Source: a bacterium (GTDB lineage Bacteria > UBA9089 > CG2-30-40-21 > SBAY01). From it: 29,608 nt of DNA. Each line of letters begins with the position of its first letter. The first letter of the stretch is position 1. Position numbers and translations under genes: made by a program. The notes under the pieces were generated by a model, which was not told the origin of the DNA, made no database searches, and was given only the letters and a program-made list of their open reading frames with translations. The stretch is taken from NCBI GenBank assembly GCA_040757115.1, contig JBFLYA010000022.1, forward strand, positions 1 through 29,608, in the 5' to 3' direction. Of the stretch, positions 254 to 26,133 are shown one piece after another.

Positions 254-2575
254 TTACTTCTTTTTCTGTTCCTCAATCATCCGAATTAAATTTTTAGCAT
301 AGGCATTATTTGGGTCTATCTCTAATACTTTCGTAAACTCTAAATATGCCTCTTGAAATCGTCTTTGTTGAAAATAGATAGAGCCAAGATTTTTACGCGG
401 CTCTATATTTTGAGGGGCAATCCGAATCATCTCCTGACATTCCTTAATTACTTCCGTGATATTCTTTTCATCATAGTAAATTCGGGCAAGATTATTATGT
501 GCCTCAAAATTATCCGGGTTTGTCGTGATAAGTTTTTTAAGCAGTGCCTTTGTCTGTTCTGTCTTACCCTGGAGAGTGTATATTTTAGATAGATTATCAA
601 GAGATAAACCACATTCAGGATTTACTTCTAATCCTTGTTTAAACAGTTTGATTGCCTTATCATATTTCTTTTGGCTTATATAGATTGTCCCTAATTTACC
701 CCGGACATCGGTAAAAAACGGGTCAAATTCCAATACCTTTTGATACTCGGAAATAGTCTTATCTATTTGGTCATCCTGGCTATAAGCAACACCAAGTAAG
801 TTATGGAAAATAGTATCTTCGGGGTAAATTTTTGTAATCTTTTCCCCGGCTTCAATTGCCTTTTTAATATTTTCTTTAAAAGTTTGAGTGGTATCTAAAT
901 ATGCATGTAAGATATGTTCGTAATAATGCCTTTCATAAGGATTTAAGAGTAATGCCTTTTCAAATCCTGGGATGGAATCAACTACTGCCCCTCCAAAATA
1001 AAGGTCTCTGCCTTGTTTAAATTCAATGTCGGCAGAATAAATATTAATCGTGAACCTGGTGATAGCAATCATTGGGAGAATAATAATTATGAAGATAACT
1101 AACTTAATCCATCTGGGGATTTCAGGCAGGGAAATAGATGCTGTCCCCTCTTGACTATTAAGCCTTGCCACAACACCACAGAAGATAAAAAAAATAGATG
1201 TGCTGGGAATTATCCAGAAACAGGATTGACTCTGAACAAAATAACCTACCCCCGCACAAAAAAGACCTATGTTCACAAGCCTATTTTCTTTATTTACCGC
1301 AAAAGCCCCTTTCAGGCAGAGCCCGAAGAAGATAATCAGCATCCACAAGTATGCCCCTAATCCTAAAAGTCCTTTTGCTAAGGTTAAATCTATAATATCA
1401 TTATGAACTCGGTCCGGCCTCCCATATTGTCCTCCTTCGGTCAGAATAAGTTCTAAAGAGCGATATTGTGGATAGATAAGTCCAAATGTCTCTGGACCGA
1501 TACCGAGCAGGGGATAATCCTTAATAATTCTAAATGAATCTCGCCACATAATGGGTCTCGCCCCTCCACTGGCTCTCAATCTTCTGGTAAATTCTGTCTC
1601 AATAGAAGTCGTAGGCATCTCTTCATCTACCTTAACAGCCTCATTAACCATTTGTAAGATTCTTCCAAATGAAGAGGTTTCAGGTTTAAGATTGAAATAT
1701 CCAGCTACAACTATAAGAATGCTTAAGGGAATAATTACCTTTTTTGTGATAAAGATATGTTTTATTACCAGGGATAAGCACAGAAAAGCAATCATTGAAA
1801 GCCCACATCCAATAGATGCCCCTCGTCCCTTACTTAAACATAAACCGGCTAAAATAAGAGCTAAACACATTCCGTAAAACCAGGGACTAATTTTGATAGA
1901 AATGGTGACAGGGAATTGAGTTAACTGTTTAATTTTATCCGCGATATTTTTAATCTTAATCGCTGGTTTTTTTTGGATCTTTAGTTCCTGCAAACATAAA
2001 GCAAAGGCAATAGGAACTAAAGTAGCGGTATAAGCACCTAAATAAACAGGATTACCAAAAGTTGAGAAGACACGATTGGCATCATAGGCACCCCATCCCA
2101 CTAAATCACGGTTTAGATGTTGCATTAATCCATAAAAACCGATTAAACCACCTGTAAAAACAGTTATATTTAATATTCGATAAATAGAATCCTGATTTAA
2201 GAAGTTTACCACAACATAAAACAGAAAAAGATAATTAATAAAGGTAATCAATCCTTCATAGCGATAATAGGCACCAACCAGGCTTAAATAAGGATTTTTA
2301 GAGGATATAGTGGCGGCAATACTCACGACAAGAAAAGCAAAAAGTGGCAGGTCAAATTTAGTCTGAAAGAATTTAATCTGTTTAGACAGGAAAAACTTTA
2401 CTAACCAGGTTAAAAGGATAATTCCAGAGAAAAGGTGCATCAAGGCTAATTTGCCTATCATTACTCCACTTAATCTCAAGTCAATAAACCAGGGAACTGA
2501 AATGATAAGTAGCATTAAGTTAATTTCTACGATTAGATTATAATAATCAAAATTCTTTTTCGACTTCTTGCTCAT
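254..2575 (-). CDS. O-antigen ligase/polymerase (Wzy_C) family membrane protein with C-terminal TPR domain
   Basis: Probable inner-membrane glycan ligase or polymerase that transfers or joins lipid-linked oligosaccharides. The 773-residue protein begins with many hydrophobic helices (roughly residues 13-500). A large periplasmic-type loop contains the sequence GRPDRVHNDIIDL, in which His391 sits where the Wzy_C/WaaL family has its conserved loop His. From about residue 540 to the end are roughly six TPR units (for example around NLLGVAYSQDD and NLARIYYDEKN), probably extracytoplasmic and used for protein contacts. The ATG at 2575 is supported by a promoter placed immediately upstream (2585-2613) and there is no Shine-Dalgarno, so the mRNA may be leaderless. 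Family membership is clear; the acceptor (lipid A core, protein or other glycan) cannot be told. The deoxysugar operon at 18713-22968 makes a surface polysaccharide role plausible. Confidence 0.88.
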   Translation of the reverse strand: MSKKSKKNFDYYNLIVEINLMLLIISVPWFIDLRLSGVMIGKLALMHLFSGIILLTWLVKFFLSKQIKFFQTKFDLPLFAFLVVSIAATISSKNPYLSLVGAYYRYEGLITFINYLFLFYVVVNFLNQDSIYRILNITVFTGGLIGFYGLMQHLNRDLVGWGAYDANRVFSTFGNPVYLGAYTATLVPIAFALCLQELKIQKKPAIKIKNIADKIKQLTQFPVTISIKISPWFYGMCLALILAGLCLSKGRGASIGCGLSMIAFLCLSLVIKHIFITKKVIIPLSILIVVAGYFNLKPETSSFGRILQMVNEAVKVDEEMPTTSIETEFTRRLRASGGARPIMWRDSFRIIKDYPLLGIGPETFGLIYPQYRSLELILTEGGQYGRPDRVHNDIIDLTLAKGLLGLGAYLWMLIIFFGLCLKGAFAVNKENRLVNIGLFCAGVGYFVQSQSCFWIIPSTSIFFIFCGVVARLNSQEGTASISLPEIPRWIKLVIFIIIILPMIAITRFTINIYSADIEFKQGRDLYFGGAVVDSIPGFEKALLLNPYERHYYEHILHAYLDTTQTFKENIKKAIEAGEKITKIYPEDTIFHNLLGVAYSQDDQIDKTISEYQKVLEFDPFFTDVRGKLGTIYISQKKYDKAIKLFKQGLEVNPECGLSLDNLSKIYTLQGKTEQTKALLKKLITTNPDNFEAHNNLARIYYDEKNITEVIKECQEMIRIAPQNIEPRKNLGSIYFQQRRFQEAYLEFTKVLEIDPNNAYAKNLIRMIEEQKKK

Positions 2576-2584
2576 TGTTTTATA

Positions 2585-2613
2585 AGTATACTCGGAATAT
2601 TAAGTATTGTCAA
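2585..2613 (-). promoter_or_regulatory. Sigma70-type promoter of the O-antigen ligase gene
   Basis: On the minus strand the -35 box TTGACA (2613-2608) is followed by a 17-base spacer and the -10 box TATACT (2590-2585). Nine bases then lead to the ATG at 2575, so transcription would start about two to four bases before the start codon. The same geometry recurs at 12384 and 25688. Confidence 0.75.
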
Positions 2614-3976: not shown

Positions 3977-4005
3977 TTGACACAAAAAGAGAAATCTGGT
4001 ATTAT
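3977..4005 (+). promoter_or_regulatory. Extended -10 sigma70-type promoter for the alpha-2-macroglobulin operon
   Basis: TTGACA (3977-3982), a 17-base spacer and TATTAT (4000-4005), with TG one base upstream of the -10 box (extended -10). Transcription would start near 4012, giving a leader of about 38 bases with an AAGGAGG Shine-Dalgarno at 4036-4042, seven bases before the ATG at 4050. Confidence 0.75.
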
Positions 4006-4049
4006 TAAAACATAATGGGAATAACTACTTACAATAAGGAGGATTCAAA

Positions 4050-7000
4050 ATGTTTTGGAAACAGATTTGGGAAAAAATCAAACAACATAAAATTCTAACC
4101 TTATCCTTAATTATTATTGCTCTCTTTGGAGTATCTCTATTCTTAATAAAAGAAAAACCAATCCCTTTAGTCGAAAAGATAAAATCAATAAAAATCCCCC
4201 TACCATTTCAACGAAAACCAGTTAAAAAAGAGTTTCAGATAACTATGCAGCCTGAAGGACTCCTCAAGGAATTTCCCAAAGAGATTACATTTTACTTTGA
4301 AGAAGGATATGCAGAGGCATCTGGGTTGAAGATAGAGGATATCTCCAATTCTATAAAGATAGAGCCAAAGATAAAAACCTCTGGAACATGGATAAATGAG
4401 TGGATATTTCAAGCCTCTTTTCTGGAAAACCTCAAGCCTGAAACAAAATATGAAGTAGAAATATATAGCATCCCTCTAACTATTCCAAAAGCAATCCCTC
4501 ACCAAAAGTTTAGTTTTACTACACCAGGTTTTACCGCCCAAATCTTTCTTAGCTCTTATGAAAACCAGAAACCCAGAATTTTATTAGACTTTACCTTCGA
4601 ACCAGTATTAGAGAAGATAACGCAATATCTTGAGATTCACAATTCAAAGGGAAAAAGGATAACACCATCAGCGATAGAAAAAGTTCAGGGAAAACCTAAT
4701 GAGGTCATTTTCTCTCTGCCAATCATAGAGAAAGCGGATGAGTTCTCTATTGTTTTAAAGAAAGGTCTTCCCTGCACATCCGGTTTCTTTTTAAAGAATA
4801 ATATCCAGGCAAAGATTCCTGTAAGCCCAATAACGATGTCCATAACCGAGCATAGAATTGAAGAAGCAGATGATGGGTATCTGGTGGTATTTTCTGCGGC
4901 ATCGGATGTTGAGAAGAATATTGACCTGGTGATAGATGAGAAGAATATCTCGCATTTTATAAATATAACCCCAGAAATTCCTCTTGATATTACCACCTCA
5001 AGAAATAGAATCTATATTTTATCCTCTAATTTTCTACCTCAAAAAGAATATACAATTACCTTAAGACCAGGGATAAGGAGTAAAAAAGGAAGCCTGCTTA
5101 AGGAGGAATATACCTGCACATTTACCACTCCAGAAAAGAAGCGAAAACTTCAATTCATCTATTCGGGAAGACATTTTGGAAAAACAGGAAACTGGAATCT
5201 TCCTTTAAAGGTAACAGGTATAAAAAAACTAAACCTTGATGTAGTCTATCTCCCTCCCGAGAATACCCTGTTTTGGCACTTGAGAAATTGGAGTCGCACA
5301 GATTATTTCTGGGATTTGGGCGAAGAGGTTATCAAAGATAGTCCTATTTCTGTTGAAAAAGATGGCATATTATGGATAAACCTCAAGGACTATCTAAAGG
5401 ATACACAGCCAGGAACATATCTTGTAAGAACTCGCAGTGTAGAGGGAAAGTATGTGGAGGATAATATTATTGTTGTCCTTTCTGATTTATCCATTGTGGC
5501 AAAGTGGTTTAAGAAAGACCTCCAGGTCTGGTGCTTCAATTCATCAAACCTCAAGCCTGAGGATAATGTTGATATTGAGGTAAGGACTTCAAAGAATTTT
5601 GTCTTCGGAAAAGGGACGACCGATGCCGATGGTAAATGCCATATATCTTCCCCAAAAGAGGAAAGACAACCTTACATCATCTTTGCCAAAAAGGGTGATG
5701 AATGGACATATTTATACATTCCCGGGTTGTCTATCCCTCTATCAGAATACGACATTCAAGGTGAAGACCCTGAAATACCATACCTCGCCTATATCTATCC
5801 TGAGCGGGAACTCTACAGACCAGGAGAAACTGCCAATGTTGGCGTTCTGGTCAGGGAAAGAAATTCATTCAAAGGTGTATCTATACCTGTCAAGATAAAC
5901 ATAAGAGACCCAAAGGGCAATAACTTCCTTTCCTTATCCGGGAAAACTGATGAATATGGACTTTGCACCTTTGTCATTCCTACATCTGCCTCATCTCCTA
6001 CAGGTAAATATATCATCGAGCTTATAGCAGGAGATAAGACACTCTATACCACAGGTATATTTGTTGAATGTTTTGTTCCTGAAAGAATGAGAGTCAATCT
6101 CTCTTTACCCAAAGGGGCATTTGACCCATATAAACCATTTCCTTTAAAGATAGCCGCAGAATACCTTTTTGGTGCTCCTGCTGATAATGAAGAATACCAC
6201 GGTAAGGCAAGGTTTGAAGAGACACCATTCAAATCCTCTGGATATCTTAACTATTCCTTTGGACCAGTCTATTTGGAAAAAGAAAAACCACCTGTTTATG
6301 AAGAGGCAATTGATGAAGGAAATCTTGATGAAAAAGGAGAGGCAAGTGTAGATGTTTGTATCCCTCCAGAGGTTAAATTTAATAACCCGATTCTATTTAT
6401 CGGAAATGTTGAGGTTGAAGAGGGAGGAAGTGGAAGGGTTACCAGAAAAAGGATAACAAAAGAAATTTACACCAAGCCATTTTATATTGGGATAAATCCC
6501 GATGTAACGAGAATAATAGAGAATAAACCCTGCAATGTCTCTGGTGTTCTCTTGAAACCCAAAGGAGATTTTTATCAGAAAAAGACTACATTGTATTACC
6601 AGATATTCAGACTCTCTTATCACTATAGCTATAGATATTGGGACGATGACAATTGGAAGGCAATACTTAATAAAATTCCAGTAACACAAAAGAAGATTCT
6701 TTCTACAAGTGATGGTAAGTTTGCCTTTTCATTTACAGCAAAAACATCATGGGCTGATTACCTGATAGAGGTTGGCAATGAAGATAATGATGTTTTATCC
6801 CAAACAAAAGTCTGTGGCTGGGGTTGGTGGTGGGGTGAAGATGAAGAAACGACAGAATCCCCTGAGGTTCTTTCTTTAAGGCTGGATAAGAAGGAATATG
6901 ATGTAGGAGAAGAGGTCAAGGTTTCAGCATCTTTACCATTTGAAGGAAATATCCTCTGGACGGTTGAGTTGGATAAAGTATATGAATCCTCTTTTCAAGA

Positions 7001-9471: not shown

Positions 9472-10044
9472 ATGGTTCCCCCAAATGATTCTGGACAACT
9501 TATTCCTGCTCACGGTGGTTACCGAAACTTACAGAGTTACCAGATGGCGGAGATAGTGTTCGATGCCACGACGGTATTCTGCAAACGATTTGTTGATAGT
9601 CGTTCACGCACTACTGACCAGATGGTGCAGGCGGCGCGCTCTGGCAAACAGAACATTGCTGAAGGCAGTATGGCTTCTGGCACCTCCAGGAAAATCGAAC
9701 TTAAACTTGTCGGCATTGCACGGGCAAGCCTTGAGGAATTGCTGATTGACTATCAGGATTTCCTGCGACAGAAAGGCTTGCCACTCTGGACTAAAGATGA
9801 CCCGCAGGCGAAAAAGATCAGAGGACTGGTTTATGAGAAGAATAAGTCATATATGACTTATAAGACCTATATTGAATTTTCTCCTCCTGATGTTGCGGCA
9901 AACACAGTAATTTGCCTGATTCACCAGACAAACTACCTGCTCGACCAACAATTAAGAGCGTTAGAAAAAGAATTCCTGGAAGAAGGCGGGTTCACAGAAA
10001 GGCTTTACCGCATGCGTTCACAAAAACGCCAGGAGAAAAAATGA
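9472..10044 (+). CDS. Four-helix-bundle protein (23S rRNA intervening-sequence-protein-like)
   Basis: A 190-residue helical protein. The core LQSYQMAEIVFDATTVFC..., MVQAARSGKQNIAEG and KIELKLVGIARASLEELLIDY fits the four-helix-bundle family that includes proteins encoded in 23S rRNA intervening sequences. The end, FTERLYRMRSQKRQ, resembles a C-terminal extension I recall in a subgroup of this family. No biochemical function is established, so none is claimed. The gene lies between alpha-2-macroglobulin and pbpC, which are usually direct neighbours, and its DNA is visibly more GC-rich than both, suggesting later arrival. Its stop overlaps the pbpC start (ATGA, 10041-10044), so pbpC translation is probably coupled to it. 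A decamer repeat within it (9855-9870) encodes the stretch SYMTYKTYIE, between the second half of the bundle and the C-terminal helix. Confidence 0.8.
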   Translation: MVPPNDSGQLIPAHGGYRNLQSYQMAEIVFDATTVFCKRFVDSRSRTTDQMVQAARSGKQNIAEGSMASGTSRKIELKLVGIARASLEELLIDYQDFLRQKGLPLWTKDDPQAKKIRGLVYEKNKSYMTYKTYIEFSPPDVAANTVICLIHQTNYLLDQQLRALEKEFLEEGGFTERLYRMRSQKRQEKK

Positions 10045-12383: not shown

Positions 12384-12412
12384 TTGACATCAATAAAATT
12401 ATATATTATTAT
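12384..12412 (+). promoter_or_regulatory. Promoter of the FliK-like gene, predicted leaderless
   Basis: TTGACA (12384-12389), a 17-base spacer and TATTAT (12407-12412), then exactly nine bases to the ATG at 12422. The transcript would begin about two or three bases before the start codon. Confidence 0.75.
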
Positions 12413-12421
12413 AAAATACAA

Positions 12422-13120
12422 ATGAACATCATTCCTTTACAAATTATTGACCAGAAACTACTTGATTTTAAGTTAGCCCCACAAATAAAAGTTGGCGAGG
12501 TTCTTGAAGGAACAGTAGATGAGGTATTAGAAAATAAAACCTATCTTTTTAAACTCGCTGGATTTACTTTTCGAGCAAGAAGTCCACTTATATTAAATAA
12601 ATACGATAGAATCCAGGTAGAAGTAAAAAGCATTGAACCAAGAATTGTGTTCAAATTACTCCCATCACAAAACAAAAGCAATTTACCTGTTTCTGAAAAG
12701 ATAAAATCTCCAGATACAAACTATTTATTTTTTACCACCTCGAATTTATCTTCTCTGGGGATAAATAATCTCTGTGTCAAAACATTTGACACAGATGAAG
12801 AAATCTCTTCTAAAGGACTAAAATCTAAATATGAGGCAGTAGATATTCTTCTGGAGATGTCTGAGTTAGGTAAAGTTTTAGTCAAAATAACTCGCCAGGG
12901 AGATTTATCTTATTATCAAATAATAGTTGAAGATAAAAATATTAAGGAATTTGTTGAGGAGAACCTGCAAGGATTATTAACTGATTTAGAAAATGTCGGC
13001 TTCCCATTTCCCAACATAAATTGTTTAGCTAATCCAGGTTTAAAAAATCAGGATTTTTATGCTGAATCAACAATAACCAGGACGGAAAAAGGGTATAGTC
13101 GAATAGATACAATTGGATAA
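12422..13120 (+). CDS. FliK-like (flagellar hook-length control domain) protein
   Basis: A 232-residue protein. Residues about 20-80 (VGEVLEGTVDEVLENKTYLF...RIVFKLLP) look like the small beta-barrel region found ahead of the hook-length domain in short FliK-like proteins. Residues about 140-205 (DILLEMSELGKVLVKITRQG ... LLTDLENVGFPF) resemble the Flg_hook C-terminal domain, with the usual L-x-M-x-x-L-G-x-V core. Canonical FliK is much longer, and no other flagellar gene is in the window, so a true ruler function is uncertain. The start is the ATG at 12422, set by the promoter 15 bases upstream; an in-frame extension back to 12296 would begin before the promoter. There is no Shine-Dalgarno. 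The next gene follows after 12 bases, so the two are probably co-transcribed. Confidence 0.55.
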   Translation: MNIIPLQIIDQKLLDFKLAPQIKVGEVLEGTVDEVLENKTYLFKLAGFTFRARSPLILNKYDRIQVEVKSIEPRIVFKLLPSQNKSNLPVSEKIKSPDTNYLFFTTSNLSSLGINNLCVKTFDTDEEISSKGLKSKYEAVDILLEMSELGKVLVKITRQGDLSYYQIIVEDKNIKEFVEENLQGLLTDLENVGFPFPNINCLANPGLKNQDFYAESTITRTEKGYSRIDTIG

Positions 13121-13132
13121 AAGAGGTAATTG

Positions 13133-15403
13133 ATGGAAATTATAGTTACCCATACCAATACAGACTTTGATGCCTTAGCCAGTCTGATATTAGCCGCTAA
13201 ACTTTATCCAGACGCTCAACTTGTTCTGCCTGGCTCTTGTGAACAGAATGTCCGGAATTTCTTAGATGAGTATCCTCATGGCTTTAATCTTAAGAAATCT
13301 AAACATATTAAATTAGAGCAAGTCACAAAACTTATTTTAGTTGATACCCGTCAATCTTCCCGCATTGGGAAATTTGAAATCCTCACTGATGGCCAGATAC
13401 CAATTTATATCTATGACCATCATCCTGCACAAGAAGGAGATATTAAAGGTGAACTGATGGAGATAAAAGAACTTGGCGCCACTGTATCAATTATTTTAGA
13501 GAAGATTAAAGAACAAAATATTACCATTAGTCCAATTGAGGCAACAATTGCCGCTTTAGGGATTTATGAAGATACAGGTTCTCTCACCTTCTCTACGACT
13601 ACCACCGCAGATATTTCTGCCATAGAATATCTTATTTCTTGTGGTGCAGATTTAACCATAATTGCCAGGTTACTTGAAAAGGAACTTACTGTGGACCAGC
13701 TTTTTATCCTTAATGACCTCATATCCTCACAAAAGGTATATCAAATTGACCAGACAAATATAGTTATCGCCAAAGTTGTTATAGATAAATATGTTGGAGA
13801 CTTAGCCGTGCTTGCCCATAAGATAATGAATATGGAATCCTTAGAGGTATTATTTTGCATTATTGGTATGGAGGGAAGGGTTCAGTTAATTGCCAGAAGT
13901 CGCACAAACAAAGTAGATGTGGCTGAAATTCTCTCATTAATCGGTGGTGGAGGACATAAAACTGCCGCCTCCGCTACGATTAGAGAATTAAGTTTAGAGG
14001 CAGTTGAACAAAAACTATTGGAAATATTACACCTAAAATTAATTCCAACCAAAGAAACAACTTCTCCTCCAATCCAACTTTATCCGCATAATATTAAACA
14101 TTTAATGAGAAAAAACCTCCCGGAACCAATCCAGAACATATTAAAATTACTCGGGAAAATAGGTGATGGACTTAAAATGAATGTGTATGTGGTGGGCGGA
14201 ATTGTCCGAGACCTTTTATTAGGTAAGGCAACATTTGACCTTGATATTGTCGTTGAAGGGAATGGGATTGAATTTGCCAGAGAGTTAAGTCAAAGGATTG
14301 CAGGAAGTTATAAAAGCCATGAAAGATTTAAAACCGCTGCGGTGGTGTTTCCGGATGGGTTCAAAATAGATATTGCTACTGCTCGAAAAGAGGTTTATGA
14401 CCAGCCAGCCGCATTACCGAGAGTAACTACAGGAGGAATTTATGATGACATTTTAAGACGAGATTTTACGATAAATGCCCTCGCCATTCAGCTTAACCCA
14501 ACATATTTTGGGAATTTAATAGATTTTGTTGGTGGAGAAAAAGACCTGAAAGAAGGATTAATTGAAATCCTTCATGATAAAAGTTTTATTGATGACCCAA
14601 CCAGAATCTTTCGCGCTATAAGATTTACCTCTCGAGGGAATTTCAAACTATCCGACAACACAAAAAACTTAATTATTAAATCAGCGACCAAAGACCTGTT
14701 TTTACGGCTGGCAAAACAACGGCTCCGCAATGAACTTATCCTTATTCTAAAGGATGATAATCCAGATTCCGCTTTTCTCCAATTGCAAGAACTAAATATT
14801 CTTAAGTATATCTATCCCTTACTACAAACCGGGAGAAACCAATCATTACTTTTTAAAAAAATTACCCATACCTTATTCTATCTTGAAGTTATCATTGAAC
14901 ATAAACCTATAGATAAATGGTTAATTTATCTATTAGGTTTGATTGATGGATTAAGTAAAGAAGAGGCATCAGAATTTATGCACCACCTTAAATTTACTAA
15001 GATTCAACAAAAAACAGTTATTACAGATAAAGAGGAATCTCAACTTTTAATAGATTTCCTGAAAAGATATAGAGACCCCTCCCCTGCTGCACTTTATAAT
15101 CGGCTAACAGGAATTCCTTTAGAGGTTCTTGTATTTATTATGGCTAAGGTAGATGCGTTTGAAAACAAAGAAATAGCCTCTTGTATAAAAAAGCAGATAG
15201 TTTTTTTCTTGACGGAATTAAGCAAGGTAAAACTCAGTATAAGCGGGGATGACCTTAAAAAATTAGGAATTGAACCAGGCCCTGTTTATAAAGAAATATT
15301 TGATAAGGTTTTATCGGCTAAATTAAATGGGAAACTGAAGACTAAAGAGGATGAGTTGGAACATGCTAAGTGTCATGTTGAACAAATAACGCACGGAATT
15401 TGA
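13133..15403 (+). CDS. DHH/DHHA1 phosphoesterase fused to CCA-adding tRNA nucleotidyltransferase
   Basis: A 756-residue fusion. The N-terminal DHH domain shows Asp11 and Asp13 (TDFDA), Asp71 and DHH at 95-97. DHHA1 follows with GGGGH at 271-275. The class II nucleotidyltransferase begins with GGIVRDLLLG (from about 355), the metal-binding DLD at 369-371, and then RRDFTINALA and DDPTRIFRAIRF. It adds the tRNA 3' CCA end, or the terminal A if a partner enzyme adds CC; the DHH part is likely a nuclease or phosphatase. Related fusions usually carry two CBS domains between DHHA1 and the transferase. Here only about 80 residues separate them, so the CBS pair is absent. The ATG at 13133 has GAGG at 13123-13126. 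The last eight residues and the stop codon come from the fold-back repeat that begins at about 15369. Confidence 0.9.
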   Translation: MEIIVTHTNTDFDALASLILAAKLYPDAQLVLPGSCEQNVRNFLDEYPHGFNLKKSKHIKLEQVTKLILVDTRQSSRIGKFEILTDGQIPIYIYDHHPAQEGDIKGELMEIKELGATVSIILEKIKEQNITISPIEATIAALGIYEDTGSLTFSTTTTADISAIEYLISCGADLTIIARLLEKELTVDQLFILNDLISSQKVYQIDQTNIVIAKVVIDKYVGDLAVLAHKIMNMESLEVLFCIIGMEGRVQLIARSRTNKVDVAEILSLIGGGGHKTAASATIRELSLEAVEQKLLEILHLKLIPTKETTSPPIQLYPHNIKHLMRKNLPEPIQNILKLLGKIGDGLKMNVYVVGGIVRDLLLGKATFDLDIVVEGNGIEFARELSQRIAGSYKSHERFKTAAVVFPDGFKIDIATARKEVYDQPAALPRVTTGGIYDDILRRDFTINALAIQLNPTYFGNLIDFVGGEKDLKEGLIEILHDKSFIDDPTRIFRAIRFTSRGNFKLSDNTKNLIIKSATKDLFLRLAKQRLRNELILILKDDNPDSAFLQLQELNILKYIYPLLQTGRNQSLLFKKITHTLFYLEVIIEHKPIDKWLIYLLGLIDGLSKEEASEFMHHLKFTKIQQKTVITDKEESQLLIDFLKRYRDPSPAALYNRLTGIPLEVLVFIMAKVDAFENKEIASCIKKQIVFFLTELSKVKLSISGDDLKKLGIEPGPVYKEIFDKVLSAKLNGKLKTKEDELEHAKCHVEQITHGI

Positions 15404-17687: not shown

Positions 17688-18581
17688 TTATTCTGCCTTA
17701 ATTTCAATCTCTTCTTCCGGGATTGATTCTTTTTCCACATATTTTAAGAGGTAATTAAGAAGACTGAGAATATTCAAGAGTTCCTTTTGCACCACCTCGT
17801 ATATTTCTGGAGATTCTACTTCCCAGTATAAATGAATTAGCCTATCGCGTAACTTTATCAACTTCAAAGTCGTCCTGGTAAATTCCTGGGGTATTACCTC
17901 AGATTGAACTAAATAATTAATTATATCTTTAGAACTGCCAGGTCTTCCTAATCCTTTGACCGCAATAATATGAGTGGCAAGGTCAACTAATGAATCAATA
18001 CTTATTCGCAAGTAATGTTCGGCTAAAGCGATATTCTGGGCATCGGTTAAAAAGATAGTCTCTGGAAGTTCTTTTAATTTATTTAATTTCTTTAACGCAC
18101 TCTCACAGATATTTGCTCGTTGGAAAACTATTTCTTTGTTAAACATATTTTCTCCTTTCCTGGTTAATCGTGATTCCAGATATTTATCGTAATGTTCTAA
18201 ATAAGGTTTAAACTTAAAATATTTTTTTGTTGATAAATCCTCAAATTCTCGCCGCAACTCATCATCTTTAGAATAGATAACCCTGCCTTTCGTAATAATA
18301 TCATATCTAAAGGGTAATGGGGCATTATTTAAAATTACCACATCGAATTTATCGAAATTCAGCACTTGAGAAAGGTCGGTGTTTAATTCAATCGCCTTTG
18401 TAAAGGTATTAACCGACTCACCACCTTCAAGAAAAAACGCAATATCTACATCTTCAACCTGTGTCAGGTCTTGAGATACTAAGATAGAGCCAAATAAATA
18501 AACGGCGACGACTTCACCCTTTGTTGAAGAATATCCTTGAATAACTTTAATCCATTCATTTAAATCTATCTTCATAATCAT
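17688..18581 (-). CDS. MNT-HEPN fusion protein (MntA-HepT type toxin-antitoxin in one polypeptide)
   Basis: A 297-residue protein. Residues 1-110 form a minimal nucleotidyltransferase: Gly31-Ser32, then Asp44-x-Asp46 in EDVDIAFF, and a third acidic residue, Asp80, in KFDVVIL. Residues 146-297 form a HEPN domain with Arg245, His250 and Tyr252 in RDRLIHLY, which is the R-x4-H-x-Y motif of HepT. In known systems MntA (antitoxin) adenylylates the HepT RNase on that Tyr, and the two are separate genes; here they are one frame. An internal ATG (18146) with its own GGAG lies exactly at the HEPN boundary. The first Met codons (18581 and 18575) lack a clear Shine-Dalgarno. The GS-to-DxD spacing is 11 residues, one more than the usual motif. 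Neighbours are the deoxysugar operon upstream and mgsA, convergent. Confidence 0.85.
   Translation of the reverse strand: MIMKIDLNEWIKVIQGYSSTKGEVVAVYLFGSILVSQDLTQVEDVDIAFFLEGGESVNTFTKAIELNTDLSQVLNFDKFDVVILNNAPLPFRYDIITKGRVIYSKDDELRREFEDLSTKKYFKFKPYLEHYDKYLESRLTRKGENMFNKEIVFQRANICESALKKLNKLKELPETIFLTDAQNIALAEHYLRISIDSLVDLATHIIAVKGLGRPGSSKDIINYLVQSEVIPQEFTRTTLKLIKLRDRLIHLYWEVESPEIYEVVQKELLNILSLLNYLLKYVEKESIPEEEIEIKAE
18147..18161 (-). promoter_or_regulatory. Internal ribosome-binding site at the HEPN domain start
   Basis: Read on the minus strand, AGGAAAGGAGA is followed by AAAT and then the ATG at 18146, in frame. GGAG is five bases from the ATG, a near-ideal Shine-Dalgarno distance, inside the MNT-HEPN coding frame. 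The product would be a 152-residue free HEPN protein, a normal HepT size. Confidence 0.6.
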
Positions 18582-23433: not shown

Positions 23434-23516
23434 AATCTTTTATGTGATCTAATTTATTTCTATGTCTTCTCTGTTTCTCTGCGTCTGTGCGGTAAATTAC
23501 CACCTGAACGGTTACT
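23434..23516. repeat. Right arm of the CGCAGAGA family, overlapping the glyS stop
   Basis: It matches the right part of the element at 25797-26049, through AATCTTTT, TCTGCGTCT and on to ACCTGAACGGTTAC. It abuts the CACAGATG element, and its last bases overlap the glyS stop codon (23515-23517). Confidence 0.75.
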
Positions 23517-25650
23517 ATTTTTCAATCTCTGAGAAATTGGCTATTTTTAAAAATAAACCGGCTATCATCGCCAATAACGCCAGTCTGTTCTTTCGTAACT
23601 CCTTATCCTCAACCATCACCATGACCTCATCAAAGAAATTATCAATTGGTTGGCGAAGTTGGGCTAATGTCCATAGATAGTTTGAATAATCCTTTTTTAT
23701 CAGATAAGATTCTAATTCTTCTTTAATCTTTAGATAAACAGCATAAAGATTTTTTTCAGAATCTTCTACAAATAATTCCTTTCTGACTTCTGATTTGTGA
23801 GTTTTGATTTCTGTTTTCACGATATTCATTGCTCGTTTAAAGGCAATAATTAGTGGTTCAAAGTCAGCGGTTTTAGAAAATTTTGATAAAGCATCAGCCC
23901 TCTGGAGCACATCCAGAATATCATCTACACCTACGGATAATAAGCCTTGAGCTTGACTTGAAGTTACTATCCCTGGTTGTGAAAACATACCATTTATCAA
24001 TATATTTTGCAATCTCTGGGTTAAAAAGGTTAACACCTCAATCGCTACCTTTTCTTTATCTCTTTTTATCTTACCCTCTAATAAAATCAAGGCATAGTCA
24101 ATTAATTCCCGTAAAGATAAGGGAGGAATAGATGGGGTTGCGGGAATTTTAAAAAACTCAGCCGCTAAAATATTAATTATTCCCTGTGCCTGTCTTCTAA
24201 GTGCATACGGGTCTTCAGAACCACTCGGGATTAATCCAACACTAAAACAACCCACGATTGAATCTATTTTATCAGCAAGGCTCACGATGCTTCCAGTTAG
24301 GGTTTGTGGTAAAACCCCATCTGCCGAAGTCGGTAAATAATGTTCCCAGATTGCTCTGGCAACATCTTTATCTTCACCCGAACTAAGGGCATAGTAATAG
24401 CCCATTATTCCTTGAAGTTTCGGGAACTCGCCAACTATTTCTGTGGATAAATCTGCCTTTGCCAGTAATGCCGCCCGACTTGCCTTTGCGGTATTCTCTG
24501 GGGCTATTTTTTTCGAGATAAACTCGGCTAATTTTACAATTCTAAGTGTTTTCTCATAAACCGTGCCCAAATCCTCCTGCCAGACCCTTTCTTTTTCCTC
24601 CTCTAACCGTGATTCTAATGAAATCTTCTTATCTTGACTAAAAAAGAAAAAAGCATCGGATAGTCTTGCCGAAAGCACCCGCTCATTCCCTGCACGAATA
24701 ATATTGAGCGTATCCTTAGTCACCTTTTCAGGATTAGTATTGGCGATGACTAAGAAATTTGGCAAAAAGTTATTTTCTTTATCGACAAGATGAAAATACC
24801 GTTGATGTTCGCGCATTGCCGAAACTAATACCTCTGGTGGTAATTTTAAGGATTCTTTCGCAAAGTTTCCCACAACCATCGTTGGATATTCTACTAAATA
24901 GACAACCTCATCTAATAATTCATCAAGTTGCGGGGCAAGGCAATTATTATCTTCACAATATGCCTTTATCTCATTGAGAATCATTGCTCGCCTTTTCGCC
25001 TGGTTCACGATGACAAAATTTTCCTTGAGTTTATCTTCATATTCAGCCGGATGATTAATTTTAATCACCCGGTTCGATAAAAATCGATGTCCATAAGAAA
25101 TATTATCTGATTTCATACCGCTGAGTTCAAATTTTAGTTTCTCTTCACCCAAAAGGGCTAATATCCAGCGGACAGGTCGGGCAAAATAGAAATTTTTATC
25201 CTGCCAATACATCGATTTCGGGAAGGAGATAGATTTGATAATTTCCAGGAGGATTTTAGTTAAAACCTCTTTAGTTTCCTTGCCTGGCATTGTTTTATGT
25301 GCCAGGATATAGATACCTTTTGGTGTCTCTTTAAATTTTAATTCTTCTACGGCGATTCCTTGACTTCTGGCAAAGCCTATCGCGGCTTGAGTAGGTTTTC
25401 CGTCGGTGTTAAAAGCCGCATTCTTAGGCGGACCAATTGTTTCTGAAACTAAATCCTTTTGTCTTGAGGCGACCTCCTGAACATACAGCACTAATCTTCT
25501 TGGTGTGCCATAACTAAAAATACCCTTCTGTTCAATTCTTTCTTCTTGAAAAGCCGTATTGGTCAGGTTTTTTAACTGCTCCAGCGCCGGGGGAATATAT
25601 CTTGCAGGTATCTCTTCTGTGCCTATTTCTAACAACAAATCTTTATTCAT
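23515..25650 (-). CDS. glyS: Glycyl-tRNA synthetase beta subunit
   Basis: Beta chain of the bacterial alpha2-beta2 glycyl-tRNA synthetase, which charges tRNA-Gly in the cytosol. The 711-residue protein opens with LLLEIGTEEIPARYIPPAL and contains segments typical of the family, such as VRWILALLGEEKLKFELSG, REHQRYFHLVDKENNFLPNF and GSEDPYALRRQAQGIINIL. The C-terminal anticodon-binding helices end in FFDEVMVMVEDKELRKNRLALL. Length is normal. The alpha gene (glyQ), often adjacent, is not in the window. The ATG at 25650 lacks a Shine-Dalgarno but lies nine bases after a -10 box, so the mRNA is probably leaderless. Its stop overlaps the end of a repeat arm. Confidence 0.95.
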   Translation of the reverse strand: MNKDLLLEIGTEEIPARYIPPALEQLKNLTNTAFQEERIEQKGIFSYGTPRRLVLYVQEVASRQKDLVSETIGPPKNAAFNTDGKPTQAAIGFARSQGIAVEELKFKETPKGIYILAHKTMPGKETKEVLTKILLEIIKSISFPKSMYWQDKNFYFARPVRWILALLGEEKLKFELSGMKSDNISYGHRFLSNRVIKINHPAEYEDKLKENFVIVNQAKRRAMILNEIKAYCEDNNCLAPQLDELLDEVVYLVEYPTMVVGNFAKESLKLPPEVLVSAMREHQRYFHLVDKENNFLPNFLVIANTNPEKVTKDTLNIIRAGNERVLSARLSDAFFFFSQDKKISLESRLEEEKERVWQEDLGTVYEKTLRIVKLAEFISKKIAPENTAKASRAALLAKADLSTEIVGEFPKLQGIMGYYYALSSGEDKDVARAIWEHYLPTSADGVLPQTLTGSIVSLADKIDSIVGCFSVGLIPSGSEDPYALRRQAQGIINILAAEFFKIPATPSIPPLSLRELIDYALILLEGKIKRDKEKVAIEVLTFLTQRLQNILINGMFSQPGIVTSSQAQGLLSVGVDDILDVLQRADALSKFSKTADFEPLIIAFKRAMNIVKTEIKTHKSEVRKELFVEDSEKNLYAVYLKIKEELESYLIKKDYSNYLWTLAQLRQPIDNFFDEVMVMVEDKELRKNRLALLAMIAGLFLKIANFSEIEK

Positions 25651-25659
25651 TCTGAAGAT

Positions 25660-25688
25660 ATTTTACTATACTTTTATATTTCTGTCAA
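25660..25688 (-). promoter_or_regulatory. Promoter of glyS, predicted leaderless
   Basis: Minus strand: TTGACA (25688-25683), a 17-base spacer, TAAAAT (25665-25660), then nine bases to the ATG at 25650. This is exactly the geometry seen at 2585-2613 and 12384-12412. Confidence 0.7.
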
Positions 25689-25780: not shown

Positions 25781-26133
25781 GGATCAAGGATTCGAGTAAC
25801 CGTTCACCGCAGAGACACAGAGACGCAGAGAAAAAATTAAAAACTATTTACCAGACGCAGAATTCCATCACGGATTTTCATCAGTGCAAGCTTTTGAGGA
25901 CCGACATATCATGATTGATTAACAAATTTGGTTTTGATGTCCTATGTAGGACAATAATTGCATCAATAATCTTTTCTGTTATCTGATTTATTTCCATGTC
26001 TTCTCTGTTCCTCTGCGTCTCTGCGGTGAATTACCACCTGAACGGTTACGGATTCGAGGGGGCAAGGATTCAAGTGCTTGAAAAATAAGGTGTTCACTCG
26101 ACCCCTGGATCCCTTGACCCCTTGAATCCTTTC
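25781..26133. repeat. Outer inverted repeat (GGATTCAAGG family) split by an insertion
   Basis: The left arm begins at 25781 (GGATCAAGGATTCGAG) and resumes at 26059 (GGGGCAAGGATTCAAGTG) after the inner element. The right arm (about 26096-26133) has CACTCGACCCCTGGATCCCT followed by TGACCCCTTGAATCC. The arms are built from degenerate 9-10-base units. This accounts for much of the 25651-26169 gap, which holds no gene. Confidence 0.65.
25797..26049. mobile_element. CGCAGAGA-family inverted-repeat element with 9-bp flanking duplication
   Basis: The left end is TAACCGTTCACCGCAGAGAC; the right end is the reverse complement of a related arm, finishing CACCTGAACGGTTAC. GGATTCGAG occurs directly on both sides (25788-25796 and 26050-26058), as expected of a target-site duplication. 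The 253-base element has no gene. Its centre includes GTCCTATGTAGGAC and an ATGATTGATTA segment. No transposase is encoded, so movement would be in trans. Confidence 0.7.

Follow-up and report, generated by a model that had tools for sequence, protein, structure and literature searches.

Three genes of dissimilar function lie in one stretch of DNA, each with a promoter reaching nearly to its start codon, and the question that this raises is how such genes begin to be translated. The stretch, hereafter the window, is 29,608 nt long and is contig 22 of a 4.3 Mb genome in 462 contigs. Read directly, TTGACA-N17-TANNNT-N9-ATG occurs at 2613-2573 (minus strand), at 12384-12424 (plus strand), and at 25688-25648 (minus strand). 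These coordinates and this spacing are as claimed in a preliminary description of the window, as too is the absence of a Shine-Dalgarno (SD) sequence, with none seen between promoter and ATG at the ligase, fliK, or glyS sites. The same three ATGs are chosen as starts, moreover, by a coding-potential caller that is blind to both promoters and SDs. The features involved are these:

2585 to 2613, minus strand: promoter of the O-antigen ligase gene, -35 box at 2613-2608 and -10 box TATACT at 2590-2585, read directly.
254 to 2575, minus strand: gene for an O-antigen ligase with TPR repeats, ATG at 2575-2573, matching Pfam Wzy_C (1.2e-13) plus TPR.
12384 to 12412, plus strand: promoter of the FliK-like gene, -35 box TTGACA at 12384-12389 and -10 box TATTAT at 12407-12412, read directly.
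12422 to 13120, plus strand: FliK-like gene, its ATG 9 nt past the -10 box, with the start at 12422 taken from coding potential.
25660 to 25688, minus strand: promoter of glyS, -35 box at 25688-25683 and -10 box TAAAAT at 25665-25660, read directly.
23515 to 25650, minus strand: glyS, glycyl-tRNA synthetase beta subunit, ATG at 25650-25648, matching Pfam tRNA_synt_2f from residue 5 (2.2e-192).

The FliK-like protein matches Pfam Flg_hook at 28.6 bits (1.3e-6), slightly under that family's curated cut-off. A looser pattern, i.e., a spacer of 16-18 and a -10 to ATG gap of 3-15, matches four times in the window versus 0.32 expected, with 0 of 100 shuffles reaching four. An Rfam search of the window gave 0 matches. 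Dispersed motifs, e.g., ctctgcgtctctgtgtctctgcggtgaa and ggtgaatagttacc, are present also ahead of both the ligase and the glyS promoter, at 2690-2720 and 25800-25850 (minus-strand reading), and motifs like these are found as well before other promoters of the genome.

The fourth match is to the promoter of an alpha-2-macroglobulin gene, which the preliminary description had put forward as an SD-led contrast. The SD indeed is present, but the same promoter geometry precedes this gene as well, and it is this match that had been overlooked:

3977 to 4017, plus strand: fourth N17/N9 match, consisting of the alpha-2-macroglobulin promoter and an ATG (4015) at which the gene does not start.
4036 to 4042, plus strand: SD AAGGAGG of the alpha-2-macroglobulin gene (ATG at 4050), that is, the leadered mode, conserved in the congener G001.

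The real start, at 4050, is in another reading frame than the ATG at 4015. In the congener the 29-base promoter is intact, the N9 ATG is ATC instead, and extra sequence is found between promoter and SD. The ATG at 4015 thus is rejected as a genuine upstream start, as it is not conserved, and an N9 ATG therefore can occur by chance. The 3977-4017 match in this way serves as an internal control, i.e., a non-start N9 ATG that is not retained in the congener.

Three other open reading frames (ORFs) of the window may be mentioned. That at 17688-18581 (minus strand) is a single ORF consisting of a Polbeta nucleotidyltransferase plus a HepT-like RNase domain, which normally partner one another as an MNT-HepT toxin-antitoxin pair. 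At 13133-15403 (plus strand) a single ORF joins DHH/DHHA1 phosphoesterase domains with a poly(A) polymerase or CCA-adding head. An ORF at 9472-10044 (plus strand), which the genome's coding model does not call and whose G+C is seemingly above that of its surroundings, possibly was acquired.

Whether the window's arrangement is more general can be asked of 1.22 Mb of the genome, that is, 20 kb from the beginning of each of contigs 1-61, with the window standing for contig 22. Genes were called using coding potential and start-codon type alone, with promoter and SD information unused, by a home-made caller whose starts may be inexact. A ‘near’ promoter is defined here as TTGACA (at most one mismatch), a spacer of 16-18, and TANNNT located 5-12 nt before the start. 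Near promoters are seen with 27 of 331 first-of-unit genes, versus 1.56 expected given dinucleotide-keeping shuffles, and with none of 167 internal genes, the enrichment at computed starts being 17-fold. Given a requirement for exact TTGACA, there are 20 such first-of-unit genes versus 0.03 in shuffles. If any run of 5 or more nt that could pair with the anti-SD is counted as an SD, then 0 of 31 near-promoter genes possess one versus 21 of 44 far-promoter genes (p about 1e-6), with SDs found also at 276 of 534 genes lacking a detected promoter. The promoters' position, their genes' lack of an SD, and their confinement to first genes all are direct observations. The missing SD nevertheless is partly mechanical, since the -10 box fills the space that an SD would occupy. 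The 3' end of the 16S rRNA, for its part, keeps the anti-SD (its complement reads AAGGAGGTGATCC), and the SD mode therefore is intact.

RNA polymerase usually starts 6-9 nt downstream of a -10 box. With sigma70-like, housekeeping-type promoters whose -10 boxes lie 5-12 nt ahead of the start codon, the 5' end of the mRNA for that reason would be expected to be the AUG itself or a few bases before it. Such an mRNA would be too short at its 5' end to carry an SD, and its 5'-terminal AUG would be taken directly by the ribosome, which is an established though rarer mode of initiation. Downstream genes of units, along with first genes possessing distant promoters, would employ instead an SD together with the intact anti-SD. 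We give this reading a probability of roughly 0.86, where both the transcription start site and the ribosome mechanism are what we infer. ‘Leaderless’ here, it should be said, may mean a very short leader, with 1-3 nt possible given N8-9. The idea of two start modes, which the preliminary description had suggested, stands on the confinement of near promoters to first genes and on their lack of SDs, though the ‘fixed geometry’ to which it was tied does not; as far as can be judged from the DNA, the two-mode reading is right.

The geometry, that is, is not fixed. Distances from promoter to start spread over 5-12 nt, with a maximum at 8-9: 7 genes each at 9 and 8 nt, 5 at 7 nt, 4 at 10 nt, 3 at 6 nt, and 2 each at 11, 5, and 12 nt. 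That spread, in combination with a gap of 10 nt for the congener's ligase, is why a fixed 9-nt spacing is rejected. Genome-wide there are 528 TTGACA-N17-TANNNT promoters, and exact N9 sites number 52 versus about 9 expected at one offset, an apparent peak of the sort that had been proposed as a check. Of these sites, however, 31 are copies of a single dispersed repeat of about 93 nt, and the remaining 21 are about twofold above chance.

Could exact N9 geometry therefore be mostly inherited, by way of copies of a single dispersed repeat that holds both promoter and ATG, rather than being a product of selection on spacing? The 31 of 52 sites point in that direction, as does the abundance of the repeat, with 52 copies in this genome and 46 in the congener as counted using a 93-position profile. 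The window's three genes nonetheless lie outside of this family, none of the three carrying the repeat (12, 17, and 18 mismatches at 29 free positions), and the 5-12 nt peak persists following the family's removal. Particularly, given the 210 promoters left, and anchoring on those promoters while requiring that an ATG open an ORF of at least 60 codons, there are 4.25 ATGs per offset at 5-12 nt versus 1.25 at 18-65. Such inheritance holds for the N9 count but not for the near-promoter class, and as a general account it is unlikely. We consider it rather improbable, too, that the near promoters are secondary, with distant promoters giving rise to leadered mRNA under most conditions, as near-promoter genes lack the SD that a longer message would use.

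It might be suspected instead that start codons have been misassigned, with true starts found further downstream and possessing their own SDs, for the starts indeed are computed. Pfam matches begin early, however, at residue 5 for glyS and at residue 7 of 450 for argininosuccinate lyase (L084), and near promoters are enriched at these computed starts while being absent from internal genes, all of which makes misassignment very improbable. Promoter-like strings also can arise by chance near ATGs in AT-rich intergenic DNA, as the coincidence at 3977-4017 within the window itself illustrates. Yet shuffles yield 1.56 where 27 are observed, and the reversed pattern is found 0 times versus 52. Chance thus is scarcely credible, indeed refuted, for the near-promoter class, although any single site could be due to chance.

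The repeat has as its consensus TTGACA-nAGGATAAAATTTGTGG-TAAAAT-ATCnTCAnA-ATG, followed by about 50 nt more, ending with CCTATCAGT. Beyond this genome and the congener, the same profile finds 11 copies in one family relative, 8 in another, and small numbers in further families of this phylum. Many copies are at matching sites in this genome and the congener, several with different upstream flanks. Of 77 copies looked at, which had been chosen in part using the ATG pattern, 50 possess the ATG. In 11 copies an ORF of at least 70 aa begins in frame with it, a count that omits two more fused ORFs lacking a nearby second start, and several of these (L023, L031, L034, L039, L048) have no alternative, SD-bearing start near the protein's beginning. 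Some copies in this manner would seem to supply the sole plausible start codon of unrelated proteins. Copies are found before PMT_2, GT4-type, GT2, DUF4384, spermine-synthase-domain, and nucleotidyltransferase proteins, with the fused ones belonging to unrelated Pfam families, and copies without the ATG often are found ahead of genes having their own SD. Among three near-identical antitoxin-like small genes (L062 774-683, L186 1408-1317, and L033 about 8063), two have the repeat upstream and one does not, though such a with/without pair may be paralogous, its orthology being uncertain. In a collection of genome contigs the repeat's pattern matched one contig, titled Nitrospira sp. Bin_21_1, a hit that is not decisive as to phylum.

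As to what the repeat is, its ends are weakly complementary by eye (that is, as terminal inverted repeats, in comparison with a MITE). A structured RNA was considered and rejected, given 6 pairs and -1.97 kcal/mol by RNAalifold and a single-strand DNA fold z of -0.32. An encoded peptide probably is not conserved, since the length of an A-run moves the reading frame between copies. The safest reading would be that of a dispersed promoter whose ATG optionally is captured as a gene start. It is possible, more tentatively, that these elements form a phylum-wide family of portable leaderless-start ‘cassettes’, in which a consensus promoter is joined to an ATG by a fixed gap of 9 nt. If inserted in frame, such a cassette would swap the promoter, ribosome site, and start codon of an unrelated gene in one step, adding about 20-30 N-terminal residues, while if inserted before an SD-bearing gene it would serve as promoter only. 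Copying of promoters may extend beyond this one family, because the fliK promoter's initial 26 bases have exactly one further genomic copy, at C23:7813-7838 and without an N9 ATG. The end of the glyS promoter, AAAATATCTTCAGAATG, closely resembles some repeat copies. Another promoter-like sequence, TTGACAGAATATTTTATTTATGCTACTCT, forms a second repeat family, its five copies (L047, L055, L079, L109, L222) also having about 70 downstream bases in common. In addition, near-identical promoters at 13249 and 16312 of L110 are each followed by a common leader, ggaagtccttgtgagattcaaggcactgccccgcaacgg, which looks like a cobalamin riboswitch.

How well are near promoters kept among relatives? The fliK block, from -35 box through ATG, is identical at 41 of 41 positions in the congener, despite an indel immediately upstream, and the congener's ligase keeps both boxes along with the 17-nt length of the spacer. 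In the family-level relatives G002 and G003, no near promoter is found at fliK, ligase, or glyS. Upstream of glyS there is instead an SD-like stretch in G002, neither signal in G003, and AGGAG in members of the order, while G009 and G014, of another family, have TTGACA plus a TAAAA stretch near the glyS start. Start mode thus appears to shift between lineages, and indeed to turn over quickly, as the glyS start differs in the nearest relatives in which that gene was found. In G003, glyS (L114) and the alpha-2-macroglobulin gene (L145) each have one in-frame TAG within the protein match, representing either assembly error or read-through.

Across 19 genomes of the phylum there are 1384 ATGs at 6-11 nt from promoters versus 634 at 60-65, and across 42 other genomes 834 versus 553, repeat copies being included in both cases. 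Near-to-far ratios range from about 1.2 to 5.6 per phylum member, but some outside genomes also are high, and the near-ATG signal therefore is not unique to this phylum. Leaderless initiation mostly has been discussed for Actinobacteria, Deinococcus-Thermus, and archaea. Its sequence signature now is seen in a little-studied lineage as well as in most of the phylum members examined, where gene callers that expect SDs may misplace the starts of first genes. The promoter-plus-ATG repeat suggests also a simple route by which leaderless starts might spread, because the entire start signal is about 41 bases and is independent of the host gene's ribosome site.

The closest likeness is to TA-like leaderless genes (Zheng et al. 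2011, PMC3160421), which possess TANNNT just before the start, lack an SD, and are operon-proximal, with distal genes having SDs and with start mode switching between relatives. All of these properties are shared. The signal there, however, is about 12 bp upstream (first T), whereas here the first T is 14-15 nt upstream (a gap of 8-9), i.e., 2-3 nt longer, and the present promoters, as a further difference from PMC3160421, possess a strong TTGACA -35 box, which was built into detection. In Deinococcus-Thermus, a -10 box adjoining the ORF has been shown experimentally to drive leaderless expression (PMC12340547). The likeness is in that -10 box beside the ORF. Most such Deinococcus-Thermus genes are without a -35 box, and the motif is found at about 30% of ORFs (PMC12340547), versus a -35 box being present here and about 8% of first genes involved given the strict pattern. 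Mobile promoters, in turn, are homologous promoters found ahead of unrelated genes of the same genome (Matus-Garcia et al. 2012, cited in PMC8049555). Going by that citing description, the repeat resembles them in being a homologous promoter before non-homologous genes, but it has as well the N9 ATG and, in some copies, becomes the gene's N-terminus. The leaderless class, that is, already is known from other phyla, and it is the promoter-plus-ATG repeat that is the less expected part.
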